Origin: a virus
IMG/VR virus record: IMGVR_UViG_3300048839_000451
Span: 1-37,875 of that record
Strand: one strand, 5' to 3'
Length of the DNA stretch: 37,875 bases
Part shown: piece by piece, positions 4,592 to 28,640 of the stretch
How positions within the stretch are numbered: position 1 is the first letter of the stretch
Layout: each line of letters begins with the position of its first letter
The notes under the pieces: generated by a model
Seen by the model: the letters and a program-made list of their open reading frames with translations, nothing else
Database searches by the model: none
What the model was told of the DNA's origin: nothing
Position numbers and translations under genes: made by a program

Positions 4592-4956
4592 GACGGATAC
4601 CTCCACTCGCGATCGACCGCGCGAGCAATAGGTCCGTCGTCTGCTGCGAGGATTTGGAGGATGCGAGCCCGGAGCGCGCCGCGGAGCGATTCTCGTTCGG
4701 CGCCGGAATCCAGCAGCGCGAACAGAATTCCTGCGTCAAGCAGGTAGTTCCGCCCGCCCGCGTGGCAGACCTCGACGCCGTCGGCGAGGCCGTGCTCGTT
4801 GATGAATTCGAGGCACGCACCGGCATCGTGCAATAGCGCCCACGCCCGCTGCGCGATCTCGGCGCGGCGCGCGTCTGCGTACTCGGGAGTGCCCTGCCGG
4901 CGGCGCAGGTCGCGCAGGTCGTGTTGGTACTCGGCGTCGGTGATCTGGTCGTGCAT
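4588..4956 (-). CDS. Hypothetical protein of the early leftward operon
   Basis: A 122-residue acidic, mostly helical protein (HDQITDAEYQHDLRDLRRRQ at the N-terminus; C-terminus AVDREWRYPS). No catalytic motif or membrane segment is visible. ATG 4956 is preferred because GTGAGG sits five bases upstream. ATG 4974 would extend it by six residues and overlap the upstream gene but has no ribosome site. Its stop overlaps the pentapeptide gene start. Function unknown. Confidence 0.7.
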   Translation of the reverse strand: MHDQITDAEYQHDLRDLRRRQGTPEYADARRAEIAQRAWALLHDAGACLEFINEHGLADGVEVCHAGGRNYLLDAGILFALLDSGAERESLRGALRARILQILAADDGPIARAVDREWRYPS

Positions 4957-5278: not shown

Positions 5279-5415
5279 GTTTCTCTCCTGTGGTGTCTCT
5301 GCCGGCTGTGCCGCGCCGGCCCAGCCCCGTCTAGCCCGGGGTGCCCCCTGTTTCGCCCGGGACCGCTGCCGCTCTGGTGGTGAGCACCGTGGCGTACTTG
5401 CTGGCCACAGAACGA

Positions 5416-8378: not shown

Positions 8379-8846
8379 GTGCTGATCGCCGAATTCTTCG
8401 TCCCAGGGCCGCCAATTGCCAAGGGCCGTCCCCGCGTTGCGTTGCGGGCCGGGCGGCCGGTCGCATACACCCCGGACCGGACGGTGCGCTACGAATCGAC
8501 CGTCGCATTGATCGGGGCGCAGGCTATGGACGGGCGCTCTCCGATAGCGGAACCGGTGGAGTTGAGCGTGCGGGCGTTCTTCCCAATCCCGCAATCGTGG
8601 CCGAAGGCGCGGCGCGCGGCGGCGCTGGCCGGCGAGCTTGCGCACGCCTCGCGGCCCGATCTCGACAACGTGGTCAAGGCCGTCGCCGATGGACTGGCCG
8701 GCATCTGCTGGCCGGACGATGCGTCCGTCGTCGCCGTCCTGGCGGAGAAAACCTACTCCGAGACCCCGGGTGTCGCCGTCCGAGTTCGGATCTGGCAACC
8801 GGCTGCGTTGCTGGGCCGATGGGAGGCGTCATGCGTGAGCACCTGA
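8379..8846 (+). CDS. rusA: RusA-family Holliday junction resolvase
   Basis: A 155-residue homologue of RusA, the dimeric Mg-dependent endonuclease that cuts four-way junctions. The N-terminus has PGPPIAKGRPRVALRAG. The catalytic Asp motif is SRPDLDNVVKAVADGL (91-106; D94 and D96), with further acidic residues in WPDDASV (~111-117). GTG 8379 lies after GGAGG at ~8369. It would resolve junctions made by the RecT pathway or trim concatemers before packaging. The C-terminal ~25 residues extend past the usual family end. Confidence 0.92.
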   Translation: MLIAEFFVPGPPIAKGRPRVALRAGRPVAYTPDRTVRYESTVALIGAQAMDGRSPIAEPVELSVRAFFPIPQSWPKARRAAALAGELAHASRPDLDNVVKAVADGLAGICWPDDASVVAVLAEKTYSETPGVAVRVRIWQPAALLGRWEASCVST

Positions 8847-8971
8847 TCCGCGTTGGTCTGCGGCATTCTGACGAGATCCGAGGCGAGGTCGAAGCCGGAA
8901 CCGCGGACCTGTACCGCGACGCCGAGGGCGAGATCTGGTGGGTCTGGACGCTGCGCGAAACCGACATCTAG
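8831..8971 (+). CDS. Small hypothetical protein (46 aa)
   Basis: A 46-residue protein from ATG 8831, overlapping the end of rusA by 16 bases and preceded by GGGAGG. It is acidic, with GEVEAGTADLYRDAEGEIWW and a Trp-rich end (WWVWTLRETDI). The stop overlaps the next start as TAGTG. No family recognised. Confidence 0.55.
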   Translation: MREHLIRVGLRHSDEIRGEVEAGTADLYRDAEGEIWWVWTLRETDI

Positions 8972-9363
8972 TGAGCGATCACCTGATCCTGCCGCCCGAA
9001 CTGCGCGAAACCGTGGACCGGCTCGCAAATTGGGGCCTATGGGCACGCGAGCGACGCGGTGCAGGACGCGCGCTGTCAGCGGAGGGCCGCTACCGAAGAC
9101 CGGCATCCGACGATGATCCGCGGCGCACGCCAACGCCAGTCATCGACCCTTGGGATGCGCAGCGCGTCGACAAAGCACTTGCGCCGGCTACTGGAATGCC
9201 GCGGCGGCTCTCGGTCATACTCCGCGATCACTATGTATTCCACGCCGATTACCGAGCGACCTGTCGCCGGCTCGCAATACAGTGGCAGTCCTATCATCCA
9301 ACTTTGCTACAAGCATTGCGCGCAGCAGACAATCGACTTGCGAAAAATGATAGGTTGCGCTAA
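8971..9363 (+). CDS. Putative Q-like late-gene regulator
   Basis: A 130-residue protein from GTG 8971. The N-terminal region (LANWGLWARERRGAGRALSA) and middle (PWDAQRVDKALA...LSVILRDHYVF) resemble small phage regulators at the Q position. Its C-terminal ~40 residues could form a sigma region-4-like helix-turn-helix (YRATCRRLAIQWQSYHPTLL). It occupies the place of antiterminator Q, after replication and rusA and just before HNH/terminase. A candidate promoter and two hairpins follow its last codons. Family assignment is by position and general shape, so the name is provisional. Confidence 0.55.
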   Translation: MSDHLILPPELRETVDRLANWGLWARERRGAGRALSAEGRYRRPASDDDPRRTPTPVIDPWDAQRVDKALAPATGMPRRLSVILRDHYVFHADYRATCRRLAIQWQSYHPTLLQALRAADNRLAKNDRLR

Positions 9364-9366
9364 AAC
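9338..9366 (+). promoter_or_regulatory. Candidate late promoter
   Basis: TTGCGA (9338-9343), a 17-bp spacer and TAAAAC (9361-9366) each match the sigma-70 consensus at four of six positions. It lies at the end of the Q-like gene and just upstream of two hairpins, at the head of the late operon, the position of lambda PR'. It may need an activator or antiterminator. Confidence 0.35.
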
Positions 9367-9386
9367 CTCGCGCATCATCTCCGCGC

Positions 9387-9423
9387 CTCGCATTTGCGAG
9401 TGATCCGCCTGCCACACGGCAGG
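9387..9423 (+). other. Two consecutive hairpins in the late leader
   Basis: CTCGCA/TGCGAG (9387-9400, 2-base loop) and CCTGCC/GGCAGG (9408-9423, ACAC loop) are separated by seven bases. Neither is followed by a T run, so they are not ordinary intrinsic terminators. They could form pause or antitermination signals in the late leader, or packaging-site structure. Confidence 0.45.
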
Positions 9424-9441
9424 TCGGCGCGCCAGCAAAAC

Positions 9442-9741
9442 ATGCAGACTCTACGACCTCGCGCACCTGCGCGCGACCTCGCTCGTGCAAAGCAATTGCG
9501 TGATCACCCGGACTACCGGCTGCGCGGCACATCGAATCAACTTCGTCGTAAACGATTGTTCACGGCGCAACCCCTGTGCGTGCATTGCGAGGCAGTCGGA
9601 CGCACAACGATTGCGACCGAGATCGATCACATCATCCCGATTGCAGCCGGCGGCGCAGACGCGGATCACAATCTGCAGCCGTTGTGCCACGACTGTCACG
9701 CGCGCAAGACCGCGACGGAGCGAGCGACGGGTAGGGGGTAA
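9442..9741 (+). CDS. HNH endonuclease
   Basis: A 99-residue HNH nuclease. CVHCEAVGR (first CxxC) is followed by TEIDHIIPIAAGGADADHNL (the H and central N of the beta-beta-alpha-metal core) and QPLCHDCHARKT (second CxxC and final H). HNH proteins beside HK97-type terminases stimulate cos cleavage by the terminase, and the location just upstream of TerS fits that role. ATG 9442 is used; the frame stays open upstream to TTG 9394, which would cover the leader hairpins. Neither start has a good ribosome site. Confidence 0.9.
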   Translation: MQTLRPRAPARDLARAKQLRDHPDYRLRGTSNQLRRKRLFTAQPLCVHCEAVGRTTIATEIDHIIPIAAGGADADHNLQPLCHDCHARKTATERATGRG

Positions 9742-9746
9742 GAAAG

Positions 9747-9801
9747 CTCGCGGGCGCGAGGCTCGTTCACCTTGCGCCTACCCATTCGGACAAAAAAGTC
9801 C
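9747..9801 (+). other. Hairpin-rich HNH-terS intergenic segment; possible packaging site
   Basis: Between HNH and terS lie two inverted repeats, CTCGCG/CGCGAG (9747-9760) and GGAC/GTCC around six A residues (9788-9801). Phage cos or pac sites often sit beside terS, so this is a reasonable place to look for one, but no defined end is visible in the sequence. Confidence 0.3.
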
Positions 9802-9828
9802 TGTTTGCACCATAGGAGGGCGGTCGCG

Positions 9829-10143
9829 ATGACTGATTCCACGCTAAAGCGCCCGCGCAAGACTCCGGCGAAGCGATCGACGGTGAAACGCCAGCCGACT
9901 CCGGCAATGCTGCCGGCGGCACCTGGACAAGACCCATTGGAATTTCTGCTATCTGTGCAAAACGATCCGAATGCAGCGCCGGCATTGCGTGTGCGTGCTG
10001 CGGTCGCGGCGGCGCAATACATGCATACGCGGCGCGCTGATGGCGGGAAGAAGGAAGAACAGGAAGCGCGTGCGATCGAGTTGATGCAGGGCGGAAAGTT
10101 CGCGCTCTCGCGCCCGCCGTTGAAGCTGGTGAGCGGTGGCTGA
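9829..10143 (+). CDS. terS: Terminase small subunit
   Basis: A 104-residue protein from ATG 9829 with a strong AGGAGG site at 9814. A basic, Pro-rich N-terminus (LKRPRKTPAKRSTVKRQ, ~5-21) is followed by a helical domain PLEFLLSVQNDPNAAPALRV ... AAAQYMHTRR (~36-68), typical of a small TerS family lying directly upstream of HK97-type TerL. It should recognise the packaging site and stimulate TerL. Its stop overlaps the TerL start by eight bases. Confidence 0.78.
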   Translation: MTDSTLKRPRKTPAKRSTVKRQPTPAMLPAAPGQDPLEFLLSVQNDPNAAPALRVRAAVAAAQYMHTRRADGGKKEEQEARAIELMQGGKFALSRPPLKLVSGG

Positions 10144-13858: not shown

Positions 13859-15028
13859 ATGGACGTGAAAGACCAAATCCTCGGCGTTCTCAAGGAACAC
13901 ACCGAGGCGCTGACCGCGGCGATTGCTCGCAGCGATGCTGAGTTGAAGGAGCATGGCAAGGTTGCTGATGCGACAAAGAACGAGATCGCCGCGCTGTCCG
14001 AGAAGGGCCGCGCGATCGAGGCTCGGCTTGAGGCGCTGGAGCAGACGAGCGTGCGCGACACCGGGGGCAAACAGCAGCGCAAGTCGATTGGCCAGATTTG
14101 CACGGAGTCGGATCAGTTCAAAGAGTTCGCTTCGCGCAAGCAGAAAAAGGGGCAGTCTGCGCCGGTGGAACTCAAGGACATTACGAGCGACGCAGCTTCG
14201 GCCGGCGACGGAATCTGGTCTTATCGCGATCCCGAGCTGGTGTCGAATCCGTATCGCCCGCGAATGATCCGCACGCTGATTCCGACCGTGCCTGTCAACA
14301 GCAATCTGGTCGAGTGGGTGCAGACTAACGTCAGGACGAATCGTGCCGATGTCGTTTCGGAAGGTGGCGAGAAGCCGAAGTCCGAGTTGACGTATGACCG
14401 GAAGGAAACGCCGATTCGCAAAATCGCGCACTACTTCAAAACGTCAAGCGAAGTGCTGCAAGACTTCGCACGTCTGCGTGCGGAGATCGACTTCGAGGGC
14501 ATGGAGATGCTGCGTCAGGTCGAGGAAGATCAGCTCATGTCGGGCGACGGAACCGGCATCAACATCCTGGGGCTGATTCCGCAGGCAACGAACTTCGACG
14601 TGTCGATGGTCGTGTCTGGCGACCAGCAAGTCGACGTGATCCGGCGTGCGATTCTGCAGGTGCGGCAATCGTTCTACTCTGCAACTGGTATCGTTTTGAA
14701 TCCGGAAGATTGGGCGGCAATCGAGCTGCTCAAGGACATGGAGAATCGGTATCAGTTCAGCGTCGCGACGAGTGGCGCTCCGGCGCGGCTGTGGGGTCTG
14801 CCGGTTATCGAGTCGGACGCGCTGCCGCCTGGCGAATTTCTCGTCGGCGCGTTTGCGACTGCGGCATCGATCTTTGATCGGATGTCGACGTCTGTGTTCC
14901 TGAGCACCGAGAACGAGGACGACTTCATCATGAACATGGTGTCGATTCTGTTCGAGGAGCGGATCGGGCTGGCGGTGAAGCGCCCGCTTGCGTTCGTGCA
15001 TGGCAACGTGGACGGCACTTCGGGTTGA
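13859..15028 (+). CDS. Major capsid protein, HK97 fold
   Basis: A 389-residue capsid protein. The N-terminal ~95 residues are a charged coiled-coil delta domain (VKDQILGVLKEHTEALTAAI) serving as internal scaffold and removed by the protease. The HK97 fold follows, with RPRMIRTLIPTVPVNSNLVE, VSEGGEKPKSELTYDRKETP (E-loop region), LMSGDGTGINILGL and LWGLPVIESDALPPGEFLVG as hallmark stretches. Length is normal after cleavage. A TTCG-loop terminator follows immediately. No crosslink Lys/Asn pair can be called from sequence alone. Confidence 0.95.
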   Translation: MDVKDQILGVLKEHTEALTAAIARSDAELKEHGKVADATKNEIAALSEKGRAIEARLEALEQTSVRDTGGKQQRKSIGQICTESDQFKEFASRKQKKGQSAPVELKDITSDAASAGDGIWSYRDPELVSNPYRPRMIRTLIPTVPVNSNLVEWVQTNVRTNRADVVSEGGEKPKSELTYDRKETPIRKIAHYFKTSSEVLQDFARLRAEIDFEGMEMLRQVEEDQLMSGDGTGINILGLIPQATNFDVSMVVSGDQQVDVIRRAILQVRQSFYSATGIVLNPEDWAAIELLKDMENRYQFSVATSGAPARLWGLPVIESDALPPGEFLVGAFATAASIFDRMSTSVFLSTENEDDFIMNMVSILFEERIGLAVKRPLAFVHGNVDGTSG

Positions 15029-15049
15029 TCGGTGGTTGATGGCAGGGTT

Positions 15050-15079
15050 GCGGGGCGACTTCGGTCGCCTCGCTTTTTT
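15050..15079 (+). terminator. Intrinsic terminator after the capsid gene
   Basis: A 10-bp stem (15050-15059 with 15064-15073, one G-T wobble) closes a TTCG tetraloop and is followed by six T. It stands right behind the capsid stop and would reduce transcription into the glyco/methyl cassette and connectors unless transcription is antiterminated. Confidence 0.88.
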
Positions 15080-15099
15080 CTACCCTAGACAACGAAAAC

Positions 15100-15894
15100 A
15101 TGGACAAGGTTGCCATCGCAATGCGTGCGTTTCGGCGATCCGACACGCAGCAGTTTGTGCGCAACGGTCAAAAGATCGTCGCGCGTGACAGGTACATAGC
15201 AGAATTGGCGCGCGGCGGACTGGTGCGCGAAGTGGCGATGTTGCCTGATCCGCCGGAGCATAAACAACCAGATGCGCTTGGTCGCTGGCCAGGATCGGTC
15301 ATCGTATGTATCGCGAGCGGCCCGAGTCTGACGATTGATGATGTCTCGCTCGTGGAGGAATGGCGCACCGCGCCCGTGCGCGAACCGCGCCGAGTGATCG
15401 TCGTCAACACGACGTACAAGGCCGCGCCGTGGGCTGACGTGCTGTATGCCTGCGACGCGGCATGGTGGAATCTGCACATTCAGGACGTACGCGAATCGTT
15501 CGCTGGCGAACCGTGGACGCTGCAAAACTTTGCAGCGAAGAAGCACCGGTTGCACGAGATGCCGAGTGACGCAAAACCTGGGCTTGGGCGCAAGGTCATG
15601 CACCTGGGCGGGAATAGCGGTTATCAAGCCGTAAACATGGCGTACCTTTTTGGTGCGCGCAGGATCATCCTGCTCGGCTACGACATGCAGCGTACCGGCG
15701 GGCGGTCGCATTGGCACGGCGACCATCCGAAGGGCCTGCGCAATACGTCGCCGTTCGCGAGTTGGATCGCTCGTTTCAAGGTGCTGGCGAAAGACTTGCG
15801 CGAGGCTGGCGTCGAGGCTGTGAACGCGACGCGCGAAACCGCGCTACTCGGATTTGAGCGCGTTGATTTGCGCGAGGCATTGCGGCTTTGTTGA
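15100..15894 (+). CDS. DUF115/MptE-like protein with capsid-linked N-terminal module
   Basis: A 264-residue protein. Residues ~65-235 match the DUF115/MptE-like fold: a phosphate-binding turn VCIASGPSLTIDD (~69-81), VVNTTYKAAPWADVLYACDA (~101-120), the conserved HLGGNSGYQAVNMAYLFGA (~168-186), IILLGYDMQ and a His cluster HWHGDHP (~204-210). Known members include a pterin pyrophosphokinase in archaea and the Maf glycosyltransferase module for flagellin. Residues 1-47 look like a separate small module (RNGQKIVARDRYIAELARGG), similar in style to short ORFs after capsid genes. With two glycosyltransferases and a methyltransferase behind it, a protein-glycosylation role is plausible but unproven. 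Confidence 0.78.
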   Translation: MDKVAIAMRAFRRSDTQQFVRNGQKIVARDRYIAELARGGLVREVAMLPDPPEHKQPDALGRWPGSVIVCIASGPSLTIDDVSLVEEWRTAPVREPRRVIVVNTTYKAAPWADVLYACDAAWWNLHIQDVRESFAGEPWTLQNFAAKKHRLHEMPSDAKPGLGRKVMHLGGNSGYQAVNMAYLFGARRIILLGYDMQRTGGRSHWHGDHPKGLRNTSPFASWIARFKVLAKDLREAGVEAVNATRETALLGFERVDLREALRLC

Positions 15895-16583
15895 CGGTTT
15901 GCTGCTGGCTATGGGGCGGGCGCAACTATCAACCGGCGCACGTTAATGTACTGGCGTCGACGATGCGCCGTCACTTGGGCGCGCATCGGTTCGTTTGCAT
16001 CAGCGATGAGTACGGATTCTCGTCTGATGTGGAAGTGTTGCCGATGCCGGATGCAGCGCTTGCGCTCGGTGAATTGTTGACGCCGGAAGGTGGCAGGTTT
16101 CCATCTTGCTATCGCAGACTATGGATGTTTTCTGATGAGGCGCGATGTCTCGGCGAGCGTGTGTTGCTTGTCGATATTGATCTCGTTGTCGTGCGCAGCA
16201 TTCAGCATTTGGTCGATCGAGATGAGCCGTTCGTAGGCTGGCGTCCGATTGCAAACTGGGGGCCAGCGCAGCAAAAGCGGATCGGCGGCGGATTGTATTT
16301 GATGACGCCCGGCGCGCATCGCGAGGTGTTCGACGACTTCGCCGGAGAAGTGTCGATTGCGGCTGCGCGTGACGCTGGTTTTCGCGGGTCCGACCAGGCA
16401 TGGATCAGCTACAAGCTCGCGGCCCGTGTGCCGGTGTATCCGATGAACTCTGGTATCTACAGCATTCGTGATTTGGCCAATGGGAAAAAACCGTTGCCGA
16501 CTGATGCGTGCTTGGTGCAGTTCAACGGCGATGCAAAACCGTGGCATTCGAACCTATCCTGGGTGCGCAATCATTGGCGCTGA
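15888..16583 (+). CDS. DxD glycosyltransferase (GT-A type), first of two
   Basis: A 231-residue protein resembling nucleotide-sugar-dependent GT-A enzymes. The N-terminus LTVCCWLWGGRNYQPAHVNV is the donor-binding strand; SCYRRLWMFSDEA precedes the metal-binding LLVDIDLVVVRS (D96-I-D98); SDQAWISY and a late His (WHSNLSW) complete the pattern. The start is TTG 15888 (or 15891), overlapping the DUF115 stop. No ATG exists near the conserved beginning, so expression probably depends on coupling. Donor and acceptor are unknown. Confidence 0.82.
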   Translation: MLTVCCWLWGGRNYQPAHVNVLASTMRRHLGAHRFVCISDEYGFSSDVEVLPMPDAALALGELLTPEGGRFPSCYRRLWMFSDEARCLGERVLLVDIDLVVVRSIQHLVDRDEPFVGWRPIANWGPAQQKRIGGGLYLMTPGAHREVFDDFAGEVSIAAARDAGFRGSDQAWISYKLAARVPVYPMNSGIYSIRDLANGKKPLPTDACLVQFNGDAKPWHSNLSWVRNHWR

Positions 16584-17092
16584 TCACTGACGAATACTGC
16601 GCGCTCAATACTGAGATGCACCGCCGGCAGGCGCATTACGGTACAAGCGCGGCGAAACATGCGCGGCTAGTTTGCAAGGTCTTGCGCAAGGCAAAGGCGC
16701 GATCCATGCTTGACTACGGATGCGGCAAGGCGACATTGCGCAAGGTCGTTGCTGATGTCGTCGAGTATCGAGGATTCGACCCGGCGATTGCGGAATACGC
16801 GCACGCGCCAGAGCCCGCCGATGTGGTCGCCTGCATGGACGTAATGGAGCATGTGGAACCGCAATTCGTCGAGGCGGTTCTAGCCGCAGTCATCGGCCTA
16901 GCAGGTCGCGCGGCAATGTTCGTGATCTCGTGCGAAGTCGGCGGGCGGATTCTTGCCGATGGATTGCCGGCGCACCGCAGCGTTCATCCGCCGAGCTGGT
17001 GGTTGGATCGTCTCGGCGCTTATGGCCGGGTGGACATTCATCCGCCGGTTTCACCAACCGAAGAATTGGTGGCGGTCGTTTGGAAGTCGTAA
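16574..17092 (+). CDS. SAM-dependent methyltransferase (class I)
   Basis: A 172-residue methyltransferase. Motif I is MLDYGCGKATL (~45-55), the acidic post-I region is RGFDPAI, and motif IV-like is VACMDVMEHVEPQFVE (~85-100), the MDVMEHV form common in small-molecule and sugar methylases rather than DNA methylases. The proposed start TTG 16574 overlaps the glycosyltransferase end by ten bases; the frame is open further upstream but that would intrude on the previous gene. It probably acts on the same substrate as its glycosyltransferase neighbours, for example O-methylating a transferred sugar. Confidence 0.82.
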   Translation: MALITDEYCALNTEMHRRQAHYGTSAAKHARLVCKVLRKAKARSMLDYGCGKATLRKVVADVVEYRGFDPAIAEYAHAPEPADVVACMDVMEHVEPQFVEAVLAAVIGLAGRAAMFVISCEVGGRILADGLPAHRSVHPPSWWLDRLGAYGRVDIHPPVSPTEELVAVVWKS

Positions 17093-17733
17093 CCGTCATT
17101 CGGACGAATGGCGAGCGTACTGCGGCGGCTTGTGAGTGGTACGCAAAAAGACTGTTCGCGAACGTCCAGCCTATTCGCGTCGCGCCATTCGCCGAGGCGG
17201 TGCGCGAGTGCTTTCGCATTGGCATAGCGTCGCGTGCCGACTGGCTTGTGACGATCGACGCCGACTTGCTGGTGCTTGATGGGGCGCTGAATTTACTGCG
17301 GGTCGCAAAGCGCACGACCGGATGGCAGGTGCTAGGGCGCGTGCGTGATCGGTTGTACGGCGGCATTCGGCGCGGCGGCGTGCGCGTCTATCGTGTTGCG
17401 ACACTTGATCGAGTCTTGCCGCTGGTGCGTGATGACGCGATCCGGCCCGAGGGTGATCTCGCTGGCATCGTGCCTGGTGTCGAGATGGTCGAGACGGTGA
17501 CGGCCCTCCACGATTATGAGCAGTGGTACGCGGACCTGTATCGCAAGGGCGCTGCGCATCGGATCAAACATCCGAATTGGAATGTCGAGCGGTGGCGTAA
17601 ATCGGAGGACCGCGATCTGCGCGTGGCTTATGCGGGATGGATCGGCAGCCCGATGCCATATCGCGAGAAGAAAGCATTTAGGGCGGACGAATGGCAAACG
17701 TACATGTTATCGATACGCCGGCAACCGAGTTGA
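17080..17733 (+). CDS. DxD glycosyltransferase (GT2/GT-A type), second of two
   Basis: A 217-residue protein starting at TTG 17080 with the first strand VVTVIRTNGERT. Then come FAEAVRECFRIGIASRADWL and VTIDADLLVL (D60-A-D62), the metal/nucleotide-sugar motif of GT-A enzymes, and FDxD-like downstream elements RVRDRLYGGIRRGGVRVYRV and EGDLAGI. It overlaps the methyltransferase by 13 bases and the connector gene by 43 bases. That deep overlap places the cassette firmly inside the head operon rather than in an independent morphon. Confidence 0.78.
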   Translation: MEVVTVIRTNGERTAAACEWYAKRLFANVQPIRVAPFAEAVRECFRIGIASRADWLVTIDADLLVLDGALNLLRVAKRTTGWQVLGRVRDRLYGGIRRGGVRVYRVATLDRVLPLVRDDAIRPEGDLAGIVPGVEMVETVTALHDYEQWYADLYRKGAAHRIKHPNWNVERWRKSEDRDLRVAYAGWIGSPMPYREKKAFRADEWQTYMLSIRRQPS

Positions 17734-18293
17734 TCTCGCTCGAAGAAGCGCGGATGCACCTGTACCTGGACGCTGATGGATCGCCGCCGACGCATCCGCA
17801 AGACCCCCTGATCGAAACGTTCATTACTGCGGCGCGCGAGATTGCCGAGCGTCATTGTGACGCGCGGTTCGGTGCGTGGCAGCTAGAACTTCGGCAGGCA
17901 ATGTTCGGCGTGACGATCGAATTGCCGGATGCGCCGGTAATTGCAGTCGATTCGATCGGGTATATCGATACGGACGGCGACGCACAAACGGTCGACGCTG
18001 AGGACTACGAACTTGCCGGCACGGCGACAGCGCCTGTAGTTCGTTTGGTATCCGGCGTGTCGTGGCCGACGGACGTTGCCAGTCAGAATGACGCGGTGCG
18101 TGTTCGGTACACCGCTGGCTATCAGGTCGGCAGCCCGCACACGTTGCCGGCCGCACTTAAGGCGGCGATGCTGTTGCTGGTCGGGCATCTGTACGTCAAT
18201 CGCTCGGCAGTCGAGATCGGGACGATTGCGACGGAATTGCCGCTCGGCGTGTTCACGTTGCTGCAACCATATCGTCGCAACCTCGGAGTCTGA
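17691..18293 (+). CDS. Head-tail connector (phiE125 gp8 / HK97 gp6-like)
   Basis: A 200-residue protein with SLEEARMHLYLDADG near the N-terminus, PLIETFITAAREIAERHCDA (~41-60) and the late helix LPAALKAAMLLLVGHLYVNR. This is the standard pattern of the helical adaptor ring that attaches beneath the portal. ATG 17691 lies inside the end of the preceding glycosyltransferase gene. Followed by the other neck proteins in conventional order. Confidence 0.9.
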   Translation: MANVHVIDTPATELISLEEARMHLYLDADGSPPTHPQDPLIETFITAAREIAERHCDARFGAWQLELRQAMFGVTIELPDAPVIAVDSIGYIDTDGDAQTVDAEDYELAGTATAPVVRLVSGVSWPTDVASQNDAVRVRYTAGYQVGSPHTLPAALKAAMLLLVGHLYVNRSAVEIGTIATELPLGVFTLLQPYRRNLGV

Positions 18294-20866: not shown

Positions 20867-23163
20867 TGCCGATCCTGTCGATTGATGTAGAAGCGCGGCT
20901 GGCGCAGTTCACCGATGCGCTGAACAAGATGCAGCGCGATGCTGGCCGTGCTGCCGGGCAGATCGAGCGCGCGTTTGCTGGTGCCGGCAAGGCGCTGCGG
21001 TTTCTCGGCGTGGCATATATCGGCAGTCAGGTTATTGGCAGTGTGCGCGACACGGTTGACGAATTGGCTGAATTGAATGACGGCGCGACGGCGGCCGGCA
21101 CGTCGGTCGAGTCATTGTCGTCGTTGCTCAATACGCTGCGTCCGACTGGTGTTGGCCTAGAACAAATCGTTGATCTAGCTGGTAAGATCACGCGGGCGAT
21201 GAAGCAAGCCGAGGTTGCCACCTCGGATCAGGCGCGCGCGTTTGCTGCGCTCGGCGTTTCGTTTCGCAATGCCGACGGAAGTTTCCGAGGCGCAGATGAC
21301 GTGCTGACGGACGTTGCGCGTGCGATGGCCGGGTTCGAGAGCGACGCGAACAAGGTGGCCGTCGCGCAGGCTCTCCTATCTAAGACTGGCGCGCAATACC
21401 TGCCGCTGCTCGGCGATCTCGCGTCTCGGCAACGCGAAGCGGCAAGCGCGACGAGTGAACAGGCTAGGGCTGCCGACGATCTCAAAGACCGGCTCGGAGA
21501 GATTGCGGATGCGTTTCGCATTCTGCGGGAGGAACTACTAGCGCCGATTGCGTCGCCGATGCTGAATCTCATTACGAGATTCATCGGTCTTTCGCGTGCC
21601 GGAATTCGTGACTTTGATCTTGTCGGTCAGATGTTCGATGATCCAAAAAATAGGGTCGTTGAATTGGAAGGCCGCGTAAGAGAACTAACGCGCATTCGTG
21701 AGCAGCTTGCGGAGAAAGGCGATCCGTCATTCTTGCAACGCGCATTCAACCCGGCATTGCGCACGCGCGAAGATATTGACCGCGAGTTGGTTGAAACAGC
21801 CGGCGAGATCGGCCGGTTGAATGCGCTGCAAGAACGGATTGATGTGTTGCGCGGCGGCGTGCAGGCGCAGTCATCCGGGAAATTGAGTTTTGCCGCTCCC
21901 GCGCAAGAGCCGAGAAAGGTGACTGCGGCGGCAGTTCGTGCGTTCGAGGACTTCGAGGCGAAGGTTAGCGGGATCGTCTCGCGCCTGGTGAGCGATGCAC
22001 CAGTCGTCAAAGCGCGTGAGCTAGAAGTCGTCATCGAACGGCTTAACGGATTGCTGACGATTGGACTCGATCCGAAGGTGTATGCCGGCGCGCTCGAATC
22101 GGCGCTTGTTGATCTGACCAGCAACAGCGGAGATTCGGTTCGCGCTCTGGAGTTGCTAGACCGCGCGTTCTTCGATCTAGGATTGAGCGCCGAGGACTAC
22201 GACAAAATCTTGCAGCGCATTTTCAATCGTAGCCCTGCCGATGGCGCAATAGGCGAGCGACAACTACGCGAATTGGCAGATGGTTGGCGCGATGCAATCG
22301 AGCCGATGCGTGTCTACATCCGGCAACTCGATGAAATAGCGAGACTTGAGTCGGCCGGGTTCTTGTCTCCTGATGCGGCGAAGCGTGCTCGACAAATTGT
22401 GCAGGACCGTGCGAATGCTGAGTTCGTCGGCGTTGACGACCAGACAAAACAACTATCCGACGCCGCGCGCGATCTAGGATTGTCGTTCACTTCGGCGTTC
22501 GAAGATGCAATTGTCGAAGGCAAGAACCTGCGCGACGTGTTGTCGTCGATCGAGCAGGACATCATTCGAATCATCGCGCGCAAGCTCGTTACCGAACCGC
22601 TGGCTAATGCAATCAGCGGTATTGCCGGAACACTGCTCGGCGGATTGTTCGGTGGCGGGAAAGCCGCGCCGATCAGCGCCAGTATCCCGACGTACATCAA
22701 AGCCACCGGCGGGATCGTAGGACCATCCGGCGACATGACGCTGCCGCGTGTGACGGCGTTTGCAAGCGGCGGCATCATGACGCAGCATGGCGCTGTAATG
22801 CTGCCTGGTCATTTGCGTTCGAGTCGAGGGGCATCGTTTGGCGGGGCGTCGTTGCCCATCGCATCGGCGTTTGCGGAAGGCGGAATCATGACGCCATTCG
22901 GCACGGTACCTTTGCGTACCTATGCGCGCGGTGGCGTGGCGACTTCTCCGCAGGCTGCGATCTTTGGTGAAGGTTCGATGCCGGAAGCGTATGTGCCGTT
23001 GCCGGATGGGCGCACGATTCCGGTCACGATGCAGGGCGGCAGCGGTGGCGGCGATGTGATCGTCAATATTGCGGCATCCGATGTCGAATCGTTCCGGCGC
23101 AGCGAAGCCCAGGTTAAGGCCCGCGTCGCCGGTTGGGCCGGCGGAGCAGGACGGTTCCGATGA
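20866..23163 (+). CDS. Tail tape measure protein
   Basis: A 765-residue protein, the longest helix-rich one in the tail module. It has long amphipathic helices (ARLAQFTDALNKMQRDAGRA; RVRELTRIREQLAEKGDPSF), a hydrophobic glycine-rich segment NAISGIAGTLLGGLFGGGKA (~582-601), then Gly/Ala repeats (TAFASGGIMTQHG; ASAFAEGGIMTPFG) and a C-terminus EAYVPLPDGRTIPVTM typical of tape measures. At ~0.15 nm per residue it predicts a tail of roughly 110 nm. No transglycosylase or peptidase motif is visible within it. Confidence 0.93.
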   Translation: MPILSIDVEARLAQFTDALNKMQRDAGRAAGQIERAFAGAGKALRFLGVAYIGSQVIGSVRDTVDELAELNDGATAAGTSVESLSSLLNTLRPTGVGLEQIVDLAGKITRAMKQAEVATSDQARAFAALGVSFRNADGSFRGADDVLTDVARAMAGFESDANKVAVAQALLSKTGAQYLPLLGDLASRQREAASATSEQARAADDLKDRLGEIADAFRILREELLAPIASPMLNLITRFIGLSRAGIRDFDLVGQMFDDPKNRVVELEGRVRELTRIREQLAEKGDPSFLQRAFNPALRTREDIDRELVETAGEIGRLNALQERIDVLRGGVQAQSSGKLSFAAPAQEPRKVTAAAVRAFEDFEAKVSGIVSRLVSDAPVVKARELEVVIERLNGLLTIGLDPKVYAGALESALVDLTSNSGDSVRALELLDRAFFDLGLSAEDYDKILQRIFNRSPADGAIGERQLRELADGWRDAIEPMRVYIRQLDEIARLESAGFLSPDAAKRARQIVQDRANAEFVGVDDQTKQLSDAARDLGLSFTSAFEDAIVEGKNLRDVLSSIEQDIIRIIARKLVTEPLANAISGIAGTLLGGLFGGGKAAPISASIPTYIKATGGIVGPSGDMTLPRVTAFASGGIMTQHGAVMLPGHLRSSRGASFGGASLPIASAFAEGGIMTPFGTVPLRTYARGGVATSPQAAIFGEGSMPEAYVPLPDGRTIPVTMQGGSGGGDVIVNIAASDVESFRRSEAQVKARVAGWAGGAGRFR

Positions 23164-23774
23164 GCTTCATCGACCAGCGATTTCCGGAGTCCTACGCTTA
23201 CGGCGCAGTCGCGACTGACGATTGGCTAACCGAGATTGTCGTCACGCGGAACCGACGCGAATATCGCAATGCGCCTGTCGCAGACGTGCGTCGATCCTGG
23301 GATCTATCGACGACCGGCAAGACTGCCGAGCAGCGCGCCGGAATACATGATTACTTCCTTGCGATGCGCGGGCCGTTTCACATCTTTCCTTTTCGCGATC
23401 TGTTCGACTATCAGGCGCAGCGATCGGTCATCGGTGCCGGCGACGGTGCGGCTGACGATTTCCAGCTTGTTAAGGCGTACACCATCGGCGGCGAGACGTA
23501 CTCGCGCACGATCACCAAGCCGGTTATTGCAAGCGTGCAGGTATGGGTCAACAACGTCGAGCAAGTGTCGGGCTGGACCGTTGATAGGGCGACTGGTGTT
23601 GTGTCCTTTACGTCGCCGCCGTCGAACGAGGCGGTTATTGAAGCGTCGTGTGAATTCGATGTTCCGGTGCGCTTCGCTGAATCTAGATTAGCGTGGCGTG
23701 CTCAGGCTCGCAGCGGTAGCGAGCTTTTCTTTTTCTGTGACGCGCTGACGCTAATCGAGGTGCTGGGCGAATGA
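23160..23774 (+). CDS. Distal tail protein, DUF2460 family
   Basis: A 204-residue protein starting MSFIDQRFPESYAYGAVATD, with RRSWDLSTTGKTAEQRAGIH, YFLAMRGPFHIFPFRDLFDY and ESRLAWRAQ. This is the DUF2460 pattern of the hub ring that begins the lambda/GTA-type tail tip. It overlaps the tape measure stop by four bases. The longer open frame upstream lies within the tape measure gene. Confidence 0.9.
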   Translation: MSFIDQRFPESYAYGAVATDDWLTEIVVTRNRREYRNAPVADVRRSWDLSTTGKTAEQRAGIHDYFLAMRGPFHIFPFRDLFDYQAQRSVIGAGDGAADDFQLVKAYTIGGETYSRTITKPVIASVQVWVNNVEQVSGWTVDRATGVVSFTSPPSNEAVIEASCEFDVPVRFAESRLAWRAQARSGSELFFFCDALTLIEVLGE

Positions 23775-24682
23775 GGACTGTTCCTGCTGGCATCCTCGCC
23801 GCTAAAGAGTCGCATTCGTCGCGACTGTGCAAGCTGTGGCGGATTGAGCGTATCGACGGTGCGGTGGTGCGTTATACGGATCACGACCAGGACATAACGA
23901 TCGACGGAGAAGTCTTTGTAGCGACTGCGTTTTTCGATCCGTCGGCAATCAAAACCGGCCTCGATATGAGCGTGTCCGATCTCGAAGTGCTCGGCGCGCT
24001 AGACGTTGGCAGTGCGGATGATCTGCTGGCCGGCAAGTGGAACGGCGCGTCGTTTCTGATCGGTGAATGCCTTTGGGATGATCCAACGGCTGGTGTCGTG
24101 ATCGACAAATTCGGATGGATCGGCAATATCAAAGAAGTTGGCAATCGGTTCGTCGCTGAGTTGCTCGGGCCTGAACGTATCCTGCAACGAGACATCATCC
24201 GCAGTTACACGCCCGGATGTAATGCGCTGCTTGGCGATGACCGTTGCGGAGTCGATCTCGCGCCGACCACGCAAACAGGAACGGTAGCCAGCGTTACGAA
24301 CAATCGATTCTGGTCGGCAACAGGACTCGTGATTCCGAGTGGCGATCCTGGCGACTATTTTCAATTCGGAACGACGACGTTTATCAGCGGAGACAATGCC
24401 GGCCTGAGCATGGAGACGCGCTCCTGCGACGGTACATGGGTGCAGATGATGCTGCCGTTGCCGTTCGATGTTGCGGTCGGCGACCAGTTCACGATTACGC
24501 CGGGATGCAACAAGTCGCTAGGCGCGTGCCGTTTCAAGTTCGACAACGTGTTGAACTTTCGCGGCTTTCCGCACGTGCCGCAATCGGATGATGTTGTGAA
24601 GGGCATCGCGCGCACGGAAGTTGAAAACGTTGACGGCGGGATGATCTGGCCGACGCCCGACGACGGAGCTGGTTCGCCGTGA
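23771..24682 (+). CDS. Tail tip protein, DUF2163/BR0599 (lambda gpL-like)
   Basis: A 303-residue hub protein. The N-terminal DUF2163 domain has LCKLWRIERIDGAVVRYTDH, then FFDPSAIKTGLDMSVSDLEV. The C-terminal BR0599 domain carries conserved Cys in TPGCNALLGDDRCGVD and ITPGCNKSLGACRFKFDN. Lambda gpL, its functional relative, binds an iron-sulfur cluster through Cys, and these four Cys are the obvious ligands here, though cluster binding is inference. Order DUF2460-DUF2163-NlpC/P60-tip protein is that of gene transfer agents and lambda-like tails. Confidence 0.9.
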   Translation: MRTVPAGILAAKESHSSRLCKLWRIERIDGAVVRYTDHDQDITIDGEVFVATAFFDPSAIKTGLDMSVSDLEVLGALDVGSADDLLAGKWNGASFLIGECLWDDPTAGVVIDKFGWIGNIKEVGNRFVAELLGPERILQRDIIRSYTPGCNALLGDDRCGVDLAPTTQTGTVASVTNNRFWSATGLVIPSGDPGDYFQFGTTTFISGDNAGLSMETRSCDGTWVQMMLPLPFDVAVGDQFTITPGCNKSLGACRFKFDNVLNFRGFPHVPQSDDVVKGIARTEVENVDGGMIWPTPDDGAGSP

Positions 24683-25089
24683 AGTTCGTCGCGCGCGAGC
24701 AATGGATCGCTGAGGTTCGCTCATGGATCGGCGTGCCGTGGAGGCATCAGGGCCGTAACCGGCATGGTGTCGATTGCATCGGATTGGTCATTTGCTCTGC
24801 TCACGCGCTCGGGCTGACGGACTTCGACTTTCGCGCGTATGGTCGTGTGCCGATGGACGATTTGTTAATGCGGCTTTGCGATGAGCAGATGGAACGACAG
24901 CACACAGCGGAGATTGGCGACGTGCTGCTGATGCGTCTGCGCCGCCTGCCGCAGCATTTTGCTGTGCTCGTCGAGCCGCGCCGCATCGTTCACGCGCGCG
25001 GCGAGGATGGTCGCGTTGTCGAGACGACGTTACCGGACGCCTGGGTGCGGCGCATTGCCGGCGTCTACACAGTGCCAGGGGTTGTGTAG
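24679..25089 (+). CDS. NlpC/P60 tail tip peptidase
   Basis: A 136-residue papain-like Cys peptidase. The catalytic Cys is in HGVDCIGLVICSA (C33), the His in LPQHFAVLVEP (H93) and the third polar residue probably the His of IVHARGED (H105). It would cleave peptidoglycan stem peptides to let the tail through the wall during infection; in lambda the related gpK sits at the same place. GTG 24679 overlaps the previous stop. Confidence 0.9.
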   Translation: MKFVAREQWIAEVRSWIGVPWRHQGRNRHGVDCIGLVICSAHALGLTDFDFRAYGRVPMDDLLMRLCDEQMERQHTAEIGDVLLMRLRRLPQHFAVLVEPRRIVHARGEDGRVVETTLPDAWVRRIAGVYTVPGVV

Positions 25090-28000
25090 TGGCACAGCTC
25101 GTCATCGCTGCGGCCGGGGCGGCCATCGGGCAGAGCGTGGCAACGGCTGCCGGCGCTGCTGCTGGCGCGACGTTCCTCGGGATGACGGGCGCCGGCTGGG
25201 GCTGGATGGTTGGCTCGGTCGCTGCGTCATTGCTGCTGCAAACAAAACAGCGCGGTCCTTCGATTGGCGACGGTAAATTCACGTCGTCGGTCTACGGCCA
25301 GCCGATACCGCTCAACTACGGCACGATGCGCCACGCTACGCAAATTGTCTGGTGGAGTGGTTTGCAGATTCGCACCGAGCAAGTCGGCGGCAAAGGCGGC
25401 GGCGGCGCAGAGATGGAAGTCTCGCGCATGAACCTGCTGCTCGCTGTTTGCGAGGGGCCGCAGGCCGGCATCCTGCGCGTGTGGGCGAATGGCAGGTTGA
25501 TCGCGCGCTGGAATGGTGCAACGTGGCTACTCGATCAGGAGGCGCTGCCAGCCGGCGAGGTGCGTGTCTATCTCGGAACGGAAACGCAATTACCCGATCC
25601 GACGTATGAGGCTGCGGTCGAACCTGAGAATGCTGTTGCGTATCGCGGCACGGTCATGCTCGCGATCGACAACCTGGAGGGCATCCAGTTCGGGCACCGA
25701 CCGCCGACGATCGAGGTTGAAGTCGCGCAAGACCTTACCGGGATGAGCTGCCCGGTAGCGCCGATTCGCAAAACCGAAGTGCAGCAGGACGGCGCATTTA
25801 TCGGGCAGACGGTTGCGCATTCGCATGGATCGAATTCGACTGCGCTCGATGTCGCAAACAAACTGCTCTATGTCGCGACCGAGGGCGACGGCACGACGCG
25901 ACAACTAGAAATCTACGATGTTAGCGGCGATGTGCCGGTATTTCGGTCGGCGCTTGCGTTCCCGCTCTGGCAGTTTTCTGGCGGCGATGTCGGCATCGGT
26001 GGTATCGGGTTTGATCCAGAGAACGGCTTGGTGCGCGTTGCATTTGGCGGGCTGCGTATCTCGACGTACTACACCGCGCCGATCGAATACATCTACGACG
26101 GACAAACGCTGCACGCATCGCGTGCGTTGATGGCGGGCGCATGGGGTAATTACCCGACGACTGGCGAGCGCGGCGGCTCTGGTGCGCTCTATGAGGTGCT
26201 TTACTCGATCTATCCGAATGACGGATACGATGGAATACCAGGCGTTACGCTGCGCGGCGAAGCGGGTTGGTGGACGCAGGCCACGGCGATCATCGGATAT
26301 CGTCGTTCGCGTCTGGTCAACGGCGAACAAACACCGTTCTATGGCTACGCATGGCATGTTGACGACAACGAGGGTCGTGTCGGCAGGATCGCGGATGTTG
26401 TCTACGTTCCTTTAGACAACGACTTATATGGTGGCGGCGGATATAACATCGCGTTTTCGTGGCAGACATGGACCGGGTGGTTTGATGACGGCGGCGGTGC
26501 AACGCAACTGACCGGCGCTACAGGCTCAGACACGACGCAGCGCGATCTATCGCTCGTCTATGCACCTAGCCGCGAATCGGTCTACGTTGTGACGCGGTTC
26601 AGCGGCATTGCGTCCGTCGACGTATCAACGTCAGGCAATCCGCAAGCAATGGCAACCGGGCTTACCGCATACCCGACCGGGCTCGGATTCGATCCAACGT
26701 TTGCTGTCTGGAATGAATTGGCCGATGGACTTGTAGTCGGATTCTCCGGCGGCTCGGTGCTCTACATGGCGTTGCTCGATCCCGACACGCTGGAAATTCT
26801 CGTTGGGCCATGCACATACGAAGGCGACGACTACGCAGGTCGATATATTCGCGCGCCGAAGGATCTCGGCAACGGGCGCTTCACTGCGCTGATTGACGAA
26901 CCAGGCGGACGCGAAACGGTAGCGATTATCGAGTCGCCAGGCGGTGCGGTGCGCGGCGCTGCTGTCACGCTGCGCTCGATCGTCGAAGATATTTGCGATC
27001 GTGCCGGCCTGCCGTCCGTCAATCTCGACGCAACGGCCGGAACCGATCTCGTGCCGGGCTTCAAGGTCGCACGACAAACGAGCGCGCGCGCCGCCATTGA
27101 GTCGTTGCGGCCGATGTACTTTTTCGACATGCCGGAGGTTGGTGAGAAACTCCGACTCGTCAAGCGCGGCGCCGCAGCAGTCAAGATCATCGATGCTGGC
27201 GATCTTGGCGCAGCGACGTTCGAACTAACAGCATCGGATGCTGCGCCAGCGTATGAGATGGTGCACACCGAGGACATGGAGGTTCCGCGTCGCTTGGAAC
27301 TTACGTTCGTTGATGTCGATGCCGACTATGATCCCGGCGTCCAAGCCGCCGAGCGCAATATCGGATCGTCGATTGCCCCGCTAACGATCGAGGTTCCGGT
27401 AGCGTGCGATGCGCAGGTCGGCGCGATCGCAGCCTGGGTGAATCTGATGCTGGCGCACGCAAGCCGCAGCACGATTCGCTTCGCGTTGCCGCATAGTTAC
27501 GACGAGTTGGTCCCTGGCGATTGCGTCATGCTGCCGCACACAAGCGGGCGCATGATGCGTGTTCGGATCGAAAAAATTACGCGAGCACGACCGCTGCTGG
27601 AATGCGAAGGCGTGCCCGACGAGGACTCGATCTATGTAGATGTGTTTGGATGGTCGCCGCGGTATCAAGGGCCGAGGCAGGGCGGCATCGGTGAGATTGC
27701 GTTCACCGACATGATCCTGATGGACGTGCCGCCACTGCGTGATTCCGACGACGTGCTCATCATGTATTCGGCATTCGGTCGCGACACGCGCACGAAAGCT
27801 TGGGCTGGTGCAGGGTTCTTCAAATCGCTGGACGGCGGCTCGAATTATTCGGTGGTGCACTGGGTTAATGCCGAGTCGGTATATGGGCGCACGATCAACG
27901 CGCTGGGTGATTGGACGGTCGGCAATACGTTCGATACAGCTAACACGCTCGATATCGTGCTGACCAACGGCAGCCTATCAACAGTGAGTGACTTCGCAGT

Positions 28001-28640
28001 CTATAACGGAGCCAACCTCGCTGCGGTGCAAACGCCGACCGGGATCGAGATTATCCAATTCGCGAATGCCGAACTGGTCGGCGATAACATTTGGCGTATC
28101 TCGCGCATCCTGCGAGGCAGGAAAGGCACTGAGCGATTCACTGGCACGCATGTGCCCTGGGAACCGTTCGCGCTGTTGTCTGTCATGACGACCTACAACA
28201 CGCTCATGCCAATGGGCGAGATCAATCTATTGCGGCATTACAAAGCGGTGTCTAATGGCAAGGCGCTCGATGATGCATTGGAAATTCCGTTGGTGCTAGA
28301 GGGCAATTCGATCAAGCCGCTGTCGCCGATCAACATTGTTGGCGAGTGGGGCGGAGGCGACGTTGACATTACATGGACGCGGCGCGCTCGAATCAATGCC
28401 GAATGGAAAGACACCTACGATGTGCCGCTCGATGAGCCGACGGAATCGTATGAAATCGACATCATGGACGGCGCGACAGTTGTTCGCACATTGACCGCGA
28501 GCGTGCCGACGGTGACGTACACGGCGGCACAGCAAACAACCGATTTCGGTTTGCCGCAATCCGCCGGCACGGTTAGCGTGCGCATCTATCAGATGAGCGC
28601 GCGCATCGGTCGCGGACACTCAGGGACGGCCACAGTATGA
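25089..28640 (+). CDS. Tail tip / host-specificity protein with beta-propeller-like insertion
   Basis: A 1183-residue protein at the lambda J / GTA tip position. Its N-terminus is a Gly/Ala hydrophobic region (~1-50), followed by the conserved FTSSVYGQPIPLNYGTMRHA (~64-83) and NLLLAVCEGPQAGILRVWAN. Residues ~236-617 are an insertion with repeated blade-like strands (GSNSTALDVANKLLYVATEG; GGIGFDPENGLVRVAFGGLR; TQRDLSLVYAPSRESVYVVT). The tip domain resumes at ~618-860 (SIVEDICDRAGL, the tail_3-type region with LPHSYDELVPGDCVM) and ends with a fibronectin-like domain (~1080-1183). GTG 25089 overlaps the peptidase stop. The insertion probably contributes to host recognition. Confidence 0.88.
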   Translation: MAQLVIAAAGAAIGQSVATAAGAAAGATFLGMTGAGWGWMVGSVAASLLLQTKQRGPSIGDGKFTSSVYGQPIPLNYGTMRHATQIVWWSGLQIRTEQVGGKGGGGAEMEVSRMNLLLAVCEGPQAGILRVWANGRLIARWNGATWLLDQEALPAGEVRVYLGTETQLPDPTYEAAVEPENAVAYRGTVMLAIDNLEGIQFGHRPPTIEVEVAQDLTGMSCPVAPIRKTEVQQDGAFIGQTVAHSHGSNSTALDVANKLLYVATEGDGTTRQLEIYDVSGDVPVFRSALAFPLWQFSGGDVGIGGIGFDPENGLVRVAFGGLRISTYYTAPIEYIYDGQTLHASRALMAGAWGNYPTTGERGGSGALYEVLYSIYPNDGYDGIPGVTLRGEAGWWTQATAIIGYRRSRLVNGEQTPFYGYAWHVDDNEGRVGRIADVVYVPLDNDLYGGGGYNIAFSWQTWTGWFDDGGGATQLTGATGSDTTQRDLSLVYAPSRESVYVVTRFSGIASVDVSTSGNPQAMATGLTAYPTGLGFDPTFAVWNELADGLVVGFSGGSVLYMALLDPDTLEILVGPCTYEGDDYAGRYIRAPKDLGNGRFTALIDEPGGRETVAIIESPGGAVRGAAVTLRSIVEDICDRAGLPSVNLDATAGTDLVPGFKVARQTSARAAIESLRPMYFFDMPEVGEKLRLVKRGAAAVKIIDAGDLGAATFELTASDAAPAYEMVHTEDMEVPRRLELTFVDVDADYDPGVQAAERNIGSSIAPLTIEVPVACDAQVGAIAAWVNLMLAHASRSTIRFALPHSYDELVPGDCVMLPHTSGRMMRVRIEKITRARPLLECEGVPDEDSIYVDVFGWSPRYQGPRQGGIGEIAFTDMILMDVPPLRDSDDVLIMYSAFGRDTRTKAWAGAGFFKSLDGGSNYSVVHWVNAESVYGRTINALGDWTVGNTFDTANTLDIVLTNGSLSTVSDFAVYNGANLAAVQTPTGIEIIQFANAELVGDNIWRISRILRGRKGTERFTGTHVPWEPFALLSVMTTYNTLMPMGEINLLRHYKAVSNGKALDDALEIPLVLEGNSIKPLSPINIVGEWGGGDVDITWTRRARINAEWKDTYDVPLDEPTESYEIDIMDGATVVRTLTASVPTVTYTAAQQTTDFGLPQSAGTVSVRIYQMSARIGRGHSGTATV

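Follow-up and report, generated by a model that had tools for sequence, protein, structure and literature searches.

A candidate glycan-modification cassette in a phage head operon and its MptE-like enzyme fused to a small post-capsid protein, a fusion that relatives probably make by −1 frameshifting

Phage-encoded glycosyltransferases modify capsid and tail proteins of the mycobacteriophages Che8, Corndog and Myrna (Freeman 2023, as cited in PMC12363180), and by analogy this is probably what the cassette described here works like. Known phage frameshifts include those of the tail assembly chaperone G/GT and of the major capsid protein (MCP) extensions of T3 and A2, and in retroviruses the Gag-Pol fusion, made by programmed ribosomal frameshifting (PRF), serves enzyme packaging (PMC5009743). 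There are precedents for sugar-enzyme cassettes in head operons, related genes being carried by D3, PAJU2, Psp6, S20 and P7. In Pseudomonas phage D3 (orf6.5/orf7), PMG1 and Psp6, as in the locus studied here, the MCP gene is followed by a small ORF, a DUF115-type gene (A in the following; 43% identical) and gp6, and Psp6 has a methyltransferase gene ahead of the connector. Enterobacteria phage P7 has in its hdmB operon an A homolog, HdmB, whose annotation names head morphogenesis and a similarity to D3 orf7, together with a glycosyltransferase, HdmD. In PAJU2 and P7 the related gene sets lie elsewhere among structural genes.

The window analysed was the whole 37,875-nt stretch of IMG/VR virus record IMGVR_UViG_3300048839_000451. 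Between its HK97-type MCP gene (13859–15028, plus strand like all features below; phrog_10, 3.6e-59) and its gp6-like head-tail connector gene (17691–18293; phrog_442, 1.3e-26) lie four tandem ORFs, A-B-C-D, each overlapping the next; an earlier reading of the DNA alone (the sequence-only reading) had claimed this arrangement, which is borne out by the ORF positions and both profile matches. A (15100–15894) encodes 264 aa from an ATG and B (15888–16583) 231 aa from a TTG; C (16580–17092) has an uncertain start, with CTG 16580, GTG 16508 and ATG 16616 as candidates, and D (17080–17733) starts with TTG. The overlaps are 7 nt for A/B, 4 nt for B/C (the C start at 16580 being assumed), 13 nt for C/D and, as had been stated, 43 nt for D/gp6. 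TTG starts had been proposed for three of the four genes; as the codon at 16580 is CTG, only B and D have one. A hairpin followed by a T-run (15050–15079; 10-pair stem, then TTTTTT) resembles an intrinsic terminator between MCP and A, at the same place as the terminator annotated after the MCP of PMG1. The fold z of this gap (15026–15085) was −2.25, and a terminator scan that included the hairpin gave a number of sites not above that in shuffles.

D3, PMG1 and Psp6 differ from the window in that the small ORF and A lie in separate frames (−1) and are annotated as two genes; in 20 records the D3-type small ORF and A are either annotated in this way or A is omitted. A search of D3, PMG1 and Psp6 for homologs of B or D found none. 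In Tetraselmis viridis virus S20 the interval from MCP to head closure also contains A, B and C homologs, but as part of nine genes in another order, with two A-like copies and no D; its A is in frame −1 relative to an ORF of 188 codons. The P7 genes, unlike those of the window, form a separate C1-controlled operon that does not follow the MCP, and hdmA has no match to the small-protein profile. The sequence-only reading had not recognised the combination at this location as described. That view does not hold, since DUF115-type genes directly follow the MCP in D3, PMG1, Psp6 and S20, some of them beside methyltransferase or glycosyltransferase genes.

The search for the same four-gene order that had been suggested was successful on a contig unrelated to the window (L094, IMGVR 3300009949_000035), where homologs of A, B, C and D stand in the order A-B-C-D; a second contig (L090, IMGVR 2751185655_000003) has A-B-D. 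The recurrence on L094 and the conserved motifs of B, C and D take the block beyond a chance arrangement. Identities of these two to the window are about 60–66% for B, 56% for C, 50–51% for D and only 33–38% for A. On both contigs, in contrast to the window, the cassette lies between Hc1 and gp10 instead of after the MCP, and A has its own start. In each case the genes lie within the head-neck operon, with B, C and D kept together in L094 and B with D in L090.

The sugar-transferase and methyltransferase signatures attributed to the four genes were supported by PHROGs profiles, motifs and folds, while none of the four proteins reached a curated Pfam cut-off. B matched phrog_1962 (glycosyltransferase, 1.6e-8) and scored 14.6 bits against GT8 (cut-off 24.3), with weaker profile matches to glycogenin (E 0.0075) and LgtC (E 0.058). 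Its DID (residues 96–98) and GxxKPW (214–219) motifs contain D96, D98 and G214 as invariant and P218 and W219 as nearly invariant residues of the alignment, and on this sequence basis B looks GT8-like. C matched phrog_24759 (methyltransferase, 1.9e-20), scored 22.8 bits against Methyltransf_23 (cut-off 27) and gave profile matches to HEN1 and UbiG structures. In its DYGCG and DVxEH motifs D45, Y46, G47, G49, D87, V88, E90 and H91 are invariant among 20 homologs, and by these motifs C is classed as a class I SAM-dependent methyltransferase.

A PHROGs search with D gave nothing significant, and its score against Glyco_tranf_2_4 was 13.8 bits (cut-off 27.5). The DAD motif (residues 60–62) is invariant in an alignment with the L094, L090 and bacterial homologs. 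These phage homologs, together with four in bacterial genomes, rule out that D is private to the phage of the window. The predicted structure of D (pLDDT 88) gave hundreds of PDB matches with Foldseek at E<0.001; the best were GT-A enzymes, from 5e-7, the PBCV-1 capsid glycosyltransferase 2p72 among them, and as modelled the fold of D is GT-A. Unrelated folds that lack sugar-nucleotide or SAM sites would have spoken against such a cassette; D does not show this, B and C keep their motifs, and A appears MptE-like.

Protein A is built of two parts. Its N-terminal module (about residues 1–59; 15100–15276) is homologous to small post-capsid ORFs and fused in frame: residues 1–56 match a separate post-MCP ORF at 5344–5628 of contig L025 (phmmer 7e-13), and the module aligns with 7199–7486 of contig L191. 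A resemblance of this kind had been noted from the window alone and is confirmed. The putative catalytic domain, MptE/DUF115/GT42-like (about residues 61–264; 15280–15894), matched phrog_4603, 'alpha-2,3-sialyltransferase', over residues 71–262 (2e-49), and scored 18.6 bits against the MptE-like family PF01973 (cut-off 34.6). G74, S76, D119, W122, N172, S173, G193, D195, H204, G207 and N242 are invariant in the alignment. Judged by its profile match, A is a member of the phage MptE/DUF115 'sialyltransferase-like' family phrog_4603, and its predicted structure (pLDDT 86) appears MptE-like in fold.

Whether A transfers sugars at all has to be weighed against its being carried in the head as an MptE-type nucleotide-dependent enzyme or as an inactive structural protein, a reading that we consider unlikely and yet the most viable of the alternatives. 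It draws on the best Foldseek match of A, and the sole one at family level, the HPPK/MptE of M. jannaschii (8sd5; E 2.5e-3, probability 1.0, TM 0.36/0.43), and on homologs in PAJU2 and Eowyn annotated as 'structural protein'. All seven PDB profile matches of A are GT42 enzymes, with the GPS, SG and GxD motifs aligned, yet at E values of only 0.21–0.39. A dead scaffold is argued against by D119, D195, H204 and the GPS residues, which are invariant across very diverse phages, and glycosyltransferase and methyltransferase genes recur next to A, to which a host-type pterin chemistry would have no obvious link.

The target of the cassette is a separate matter. O-antigen is often the target of phage glycosyltransferases, and the cassette might act on a host surface glycan, in superinfection exclusion or serotype conversion, instead of on the virion. 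In CcrColossus an A-like gene, glycosyltransferases and a methyltransferase adjoin the lysis genes, and D homologs are present in bacterial genomes, both in favour of this reading. We hold it to be rather improbable, less favoured even than the MptE-type reading of A, for the cassette of the window sits within the late head operon and its A is fused to a post-capsid protein. The seroconversion functions known from D3 are moreover those of other genes, namely iap, O-acetylase and beta-polymerase (PMC12373910). Modification of a virion protein, to which we give about an even chance, would be the most likely function of the cassette. Virion proteomics of YA3 (PMC7326022) was considered as evidence and set aside, as YA3 is a podovirus that has no A gene.

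In the window, A is read through 15100–15894 without a frameshift, the alternative frame closing after 17 codons. Such in-frame fusions were seen in one species only, on two contigs with 1 mismatch in 16.8 kb. In relatives, the A genes were grouped at <70% identity into 42 lineages. In 25 of these, all with a −1 small ORF, A has no ATG, GTG or TTG before the GPS motif; by a similar measure start-less genes numbered 0/73 for portal, 0/77 for MCP, 0/87 for gp6, 0/86 for Hc1, 0/45 for B and 0/92 for C. Values for gp10 (16/53) and TT (3/9) were not counted as controls, because these cases were attributed to over-extended N-termini in home-made models. A small ORF overlapping A at offset −1 was present in 28 lineages, nearly always directly after the MCP. 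Phased X_XXY_YYZ heptamers occurred in 16 of 27 lineages, compared with 6.4±1.9 under a synonymous null (maximum 13 in 2000), and C_CCN slippery sites in 26 of 27 (null 18.2±2.0, maximum 24). For this test the small ORFs of L024, L031 and L039 had been set by hand beforehand, the automatic choice being longer spurious ORFs at the other offset.

Substitution patterns point to the same site. Among 30 distinct D3-type sequences, substitution periodicity changes frame at index 151 (support 150–167, log-likelihood ratio 51), coinciding with the CCCAAAG heptamer at 152–158. Each of the 38 loci whose small ORF has 97 codons keeps this heptamer, and no other phased heptamer is invariant within the first ~52 codons; the chimeric peptide predicted for D3 at the slip reads ...IPK-ACGWRVAVCLASGPSLTAE. 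The flip is visible in most independent sequence pairs, while L012/L015, for which the automatic slip position is probably wrong, and L018/L020 gave no clear switch. A strong shared stimulator was not found downstream of the slip, where the mean fold z was −0.8 and SD-like elements occurred in about half of the lineages. A second conserved protein encoded by the zero-frame tail of the small ORF was not supported, as substitutions in the overlap follow the A frame. For L191 and L025, the two nearest relatives of the window, the predicted −1 products align with the A protein of the window (P0001) across the junction, so by sequence the window is a hard-wired version of the fusion in which the slip site has been lost. 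The evolutionary signature of −1 decoding is thus read directly from the relatives, from which we infer actual frameshifting; the small protein and A are very probably encoded there as one polypeptide. The earlier suggestion that the post-capsid module could tie A to the virion is plausible and, through this signature, better founded than could be known from the window.

If relatives translated A from a non-canonical start or after termination-reinitiation, they would make no fusion and that of the window would be incidental. Such a reading would account for the TTG or GTG lying 20 codons ahead of the GPS motif in D3-type A genes, the codon from which A of PMG1 is annotated. It is nevertheless very unlikely. 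Past the slip region the small ORF continues for no fewer than 22 codons (median 40) and ends within the conserved core of A, so that reinitiation would lose the GPS motif; ahead of the slip, and also across the TTG/GTG, codon periodicity follows the small ORF frame, and the alignment of the relatives' predicted products with the natural fusion runs through the junction. Transcriptional slippage in place of ribosomal frameshifting, to which the A7 to A9 runs of two lineages (L011 and L013) would be suited, is less likely still, since the C_CCT, C_CCA_AAG, A_AAA_AAC or G_GGA_AAA of the other lineages are too short for polymerase slippage.

The explanation that we put slightly above even odds as a whole is a late-operon, virion-directed glycan-modification cassette with a fusion of small protein and A that relatives make by −1 PRF. 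Most relatives with A after the MCP would produce this fusion as a minor product from the small ORF, slipping at C_CCN-type or X_XXY_YYZ sites. That most relatives seem to make the same fusion by a programmed slip suggests a deliberate tie between enzyme and virus particle. From gene order, family motifs, fusion and −1 signature, all features of the sequences themselves, we infer capsid docking, catalysis, a sugar and an acceptor: the small protein may dock on the (pro)capsid and hold A there, A would begin a glycan on a virion protein, B and D would extend it and C would methylate it. Like G/GT, the T3 and A2 extensions and Gag-Pol, the product would be a minor −1 frameshift fusion from a structural gene; unlike G/GT and the T3 and A2 extensions, it joins an enzyme-like domain to a small post-capsid protein. 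More tentatively, and somewhat below even odds, this could be a widespread Gag-Pol-like device of tailed phages, by which a few sugar-transferase copies, docked into or onto each particle, would add sugars to its shell or travel with it to the next cell; the natural fusion of the window would then reveal the unit.

Small post-capsid ORFs and DUF115 'sialyltransferase' genes are separate unknowns in many phage annotations, including that of the textbook phage D3, and among the papers searched none was found to describe a frameshift at this site. Reading the two as one frameshifted polypeptide corrects gene models, links the enzyme concretely to the capsid and makes its function directly testable in cultured phage. 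If true, enzyme tethering would join capsid extensions and tail chaperones as a use of programmed frameshifting in tailed phages, and would be relevant to the routes by which phages obtain glycan-coated particles. A tblastn search with two small proteins against phage records gave nothing at the limits used; the free small protein is thus known from two records only, those of phages that have no A gene, in which it stands alone after the MCP.

Four overlapping ORFs, A to D, lie in the 37,875-base record between the gene for the major capsid protein (MCP) and the gp6-like connector gene: A at 15100–15894, B at 15888–16583, C ending at 17092, with CTG 16580, GTG 16508 and ATG 16616 as start candidates, and D at 17080–17733. 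The TTG start proposed for C in the sequence-only reading is absent, the in-frame codon at 16580 being CTG. A hairpin resembling a terminator, with six T, was found between MCP and A (15050–15079), and a terminator is annotated at the equivalent place in phage PMG1; in a consensus scan for terminator-like sites, the region's count was not above that in shuffles.

None of the four proteins reached the Pfam cut-offs. A was assigned to phrog_4603 (annotated ‘alpha-2,3-sialyltransferase’, 2e-49); its profile retrieved only GT42 sialyltransferases from the PDB, as weak matches (E 0.2), and its model (pLDDT 86) matched 8sd5, an MptE pterin diphosphokinase, at E 2.5e-3. A is probably a member of the MptE/GT42-like superfamily. 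B is similar to GT8 (glycogenin, LgtC), C is a class I methyltransferase, and D has a GT-A fold in which the DAD motif is invariant; among its best structural matches are 2p72, the capsid glycosyltransferase of PBCV-1, and WrtF, a fucosyltransferase. On the basis of these motifs and folds, sugar transfer and methylation are the likely chemistry of the cassette. D-like proteins (26–35% identity) also occur in genomes of Rhodohalobacter, Saprospiraceae, Cyclobacteriaceae and Parachlamydiaceae (L186–L189).

The extra module on A, noted earlier as resembling small post-capsid ORFs, was borne out: residues 1 to ~59 are homologous to the small ORF just behind MCP, which phages lacking A also carry on its own (Sinorhizobium NV1.1.1, Klebsiella ST899-OXA48phi17.2). 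In relatives with A behind MCP, small ORF and A are in different frames. The survey covered 94 copies of A, which fall into 42 lineages (<70% identity). In 25 of these, no ATG, GTG or TTG occurs from the upstream stop to the conserved GPS motif of A's catalytic domain, and every one of the 25 shows a small ORF that overlaps A at offset −1 (chosen by hand in three lineages); counting D3-like, L033 and L012, the layout is found in 28 lineages. Where A lies behind Hc1 or tail genes it has a start of its own, and for the control genes portal, MCP, gp6, Hc1, B and C a start was missing in 0 of 460 cases. All 20 D3-type records annotate small ORF and A separately or omit A.

Slippery sites were counted in the 27 lineages with enough sequence, against a null in which codons were redrawn synonymously with the −1 frame held open; the lineages are related, and the counts are not fully independent. 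A correctly phased X_XXY_YYZ heptamer (C_CCT_TTG, C_CCA_AAG, A_AAA_AAC, G_GGA_AAA and others) is present in 16 of 27, versus 6.4 ± 1.9 under the null (maximum 13 in 2000), and C_CCN in 26 of 27, versus 18.2 ± 2.0 (maximum 24). CCCAAAG is kept in 38/38 loci with a 97-codon small ORF, and no other phased heptamer in the first ~52 codons is invariant. No stimulatory RNA elements were evident at the slip sites. Among 30 distinct D3-type sequences, variable sites track the third positions of the small ORF upstream (0.76) and those of A downstream (0.45–0.51), with the best change point at index 151 (support 150–167, log-likelihood ratio 51) and the heptamer at 152–158. The frame switch was seen in most independent pairs (L023/L027, L009/L010, L033/L026, L019/L022, L016/L021, L035/L059, L039/L032) and was not clear in L012/L015 and L018/L020; purifying selection on the small ORF's own tail downstream of the slip site was not visible.

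The −1 frameshift products predicted for L191 and L025 can be aligned across the junction with the uninterrupted protein of the window (...PEEKGNPFEGRWRGEEVVCIASGPS against ...PEHKQPDALGRWPGSVIVCIASGPS). The window lacks the slip motif, and its alternative frame runs for 17 codons before closing (22–81 in relatives), so that the fusion looks real and not like an error of base calling. L008, a contig of another record, agrees with the window with one mismatch in 16.8 kb, but comes from the same species.

The simplest reading would be that the enzyme is kept tethered to the small post-capsid protein, the fusion being a predicted minor −1 product in most phages and, as read from its gene, probably the only product in the window phage. 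The position of the small protein suggests putative docking on the capsid; if so, the enzyme would act on the virion or travel with it, while B and D would extend a glycan and C would methylate it. Phages glycosylating their virions with their own enzymes are established (Freeman 2023, as cited in PMC12363180), and programmed frameshifting of phages, known for tail chaperones and for capsid extensions, has been reviewed together with Gag-Pol enzyme packaging (PMC5009743). The passages covered of two surveys (PMC3711429, PMC10885494) contain no comparable case; an earlier description is possible, since the search covered the open-access literature only.

Head-operon cassettes of this type are an already known kind, and the claim that the combination was undescribed at this location does not hold: D3, PMG1, Psp6, PAJU2 and S20 carry A-like genes inside the head operon, often near glycosyltransferases or methyltransferases, and the A homolog HdmB of P7 is annotated as head morphogenesis. 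In P7 (L199:2802–5499), HdmB, the phosphatase Ppp and the glycosyltransferase HdmD, with the same annotation, lie behind a C1-controlled operator. L094 (IMGVR 3300009949_000035) has the window's A-B-C-D order, but between Hc1 and gp10, and L090 (IMGVR 2751185655_000003) likewise carries A-B-D at that site; identity to the proteins of the window is 50–66% for B, C and D but only 33–38% for A. The close relative L191 (MCP 69% identical) reads MCP, small ORF, A, gp6, without B, C and D, so B-C-D look as if they had been added together where A adjoins gp6. Two other glycosyltransferase-like ORFs (judged by eye) lie in L191 between the head-closure and gp10 genes (8532–10132), so relatives seem to place glycosyltransferase-type genes at either site. 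In the giant Caulobacter phage CcrColossus (L004:9968–14521), a block between tail and lysis genes comprises a gene resembling A, one for an NDP-sugar transferase, a homolog of C and a GT9 gene.

Elsewhere in the window, the tail-tip genes (23133–28640) encode DUF2460, phiJL001 Gp84/BR0599 and NlpC/P60 domains as well as a large tail protein, in an order known from gene transfer agents of Alphaproteobacteria and from phages related to these. Directly behind the tail genes, 29383–30114 encodes a concanavalin-A-like lectin domain protein (Laminin_G_3, 5e-20). An ORF at 3842–4747 contains a decapeptide-repeat region (PF25296, 1.7e-13) and is opposed by a 446-codon ORF on the other strand. A C-5 cytosine DNA methylase (5e-43) is encoded at 35502–36719 on the minus strand and runs counter to the late genes.
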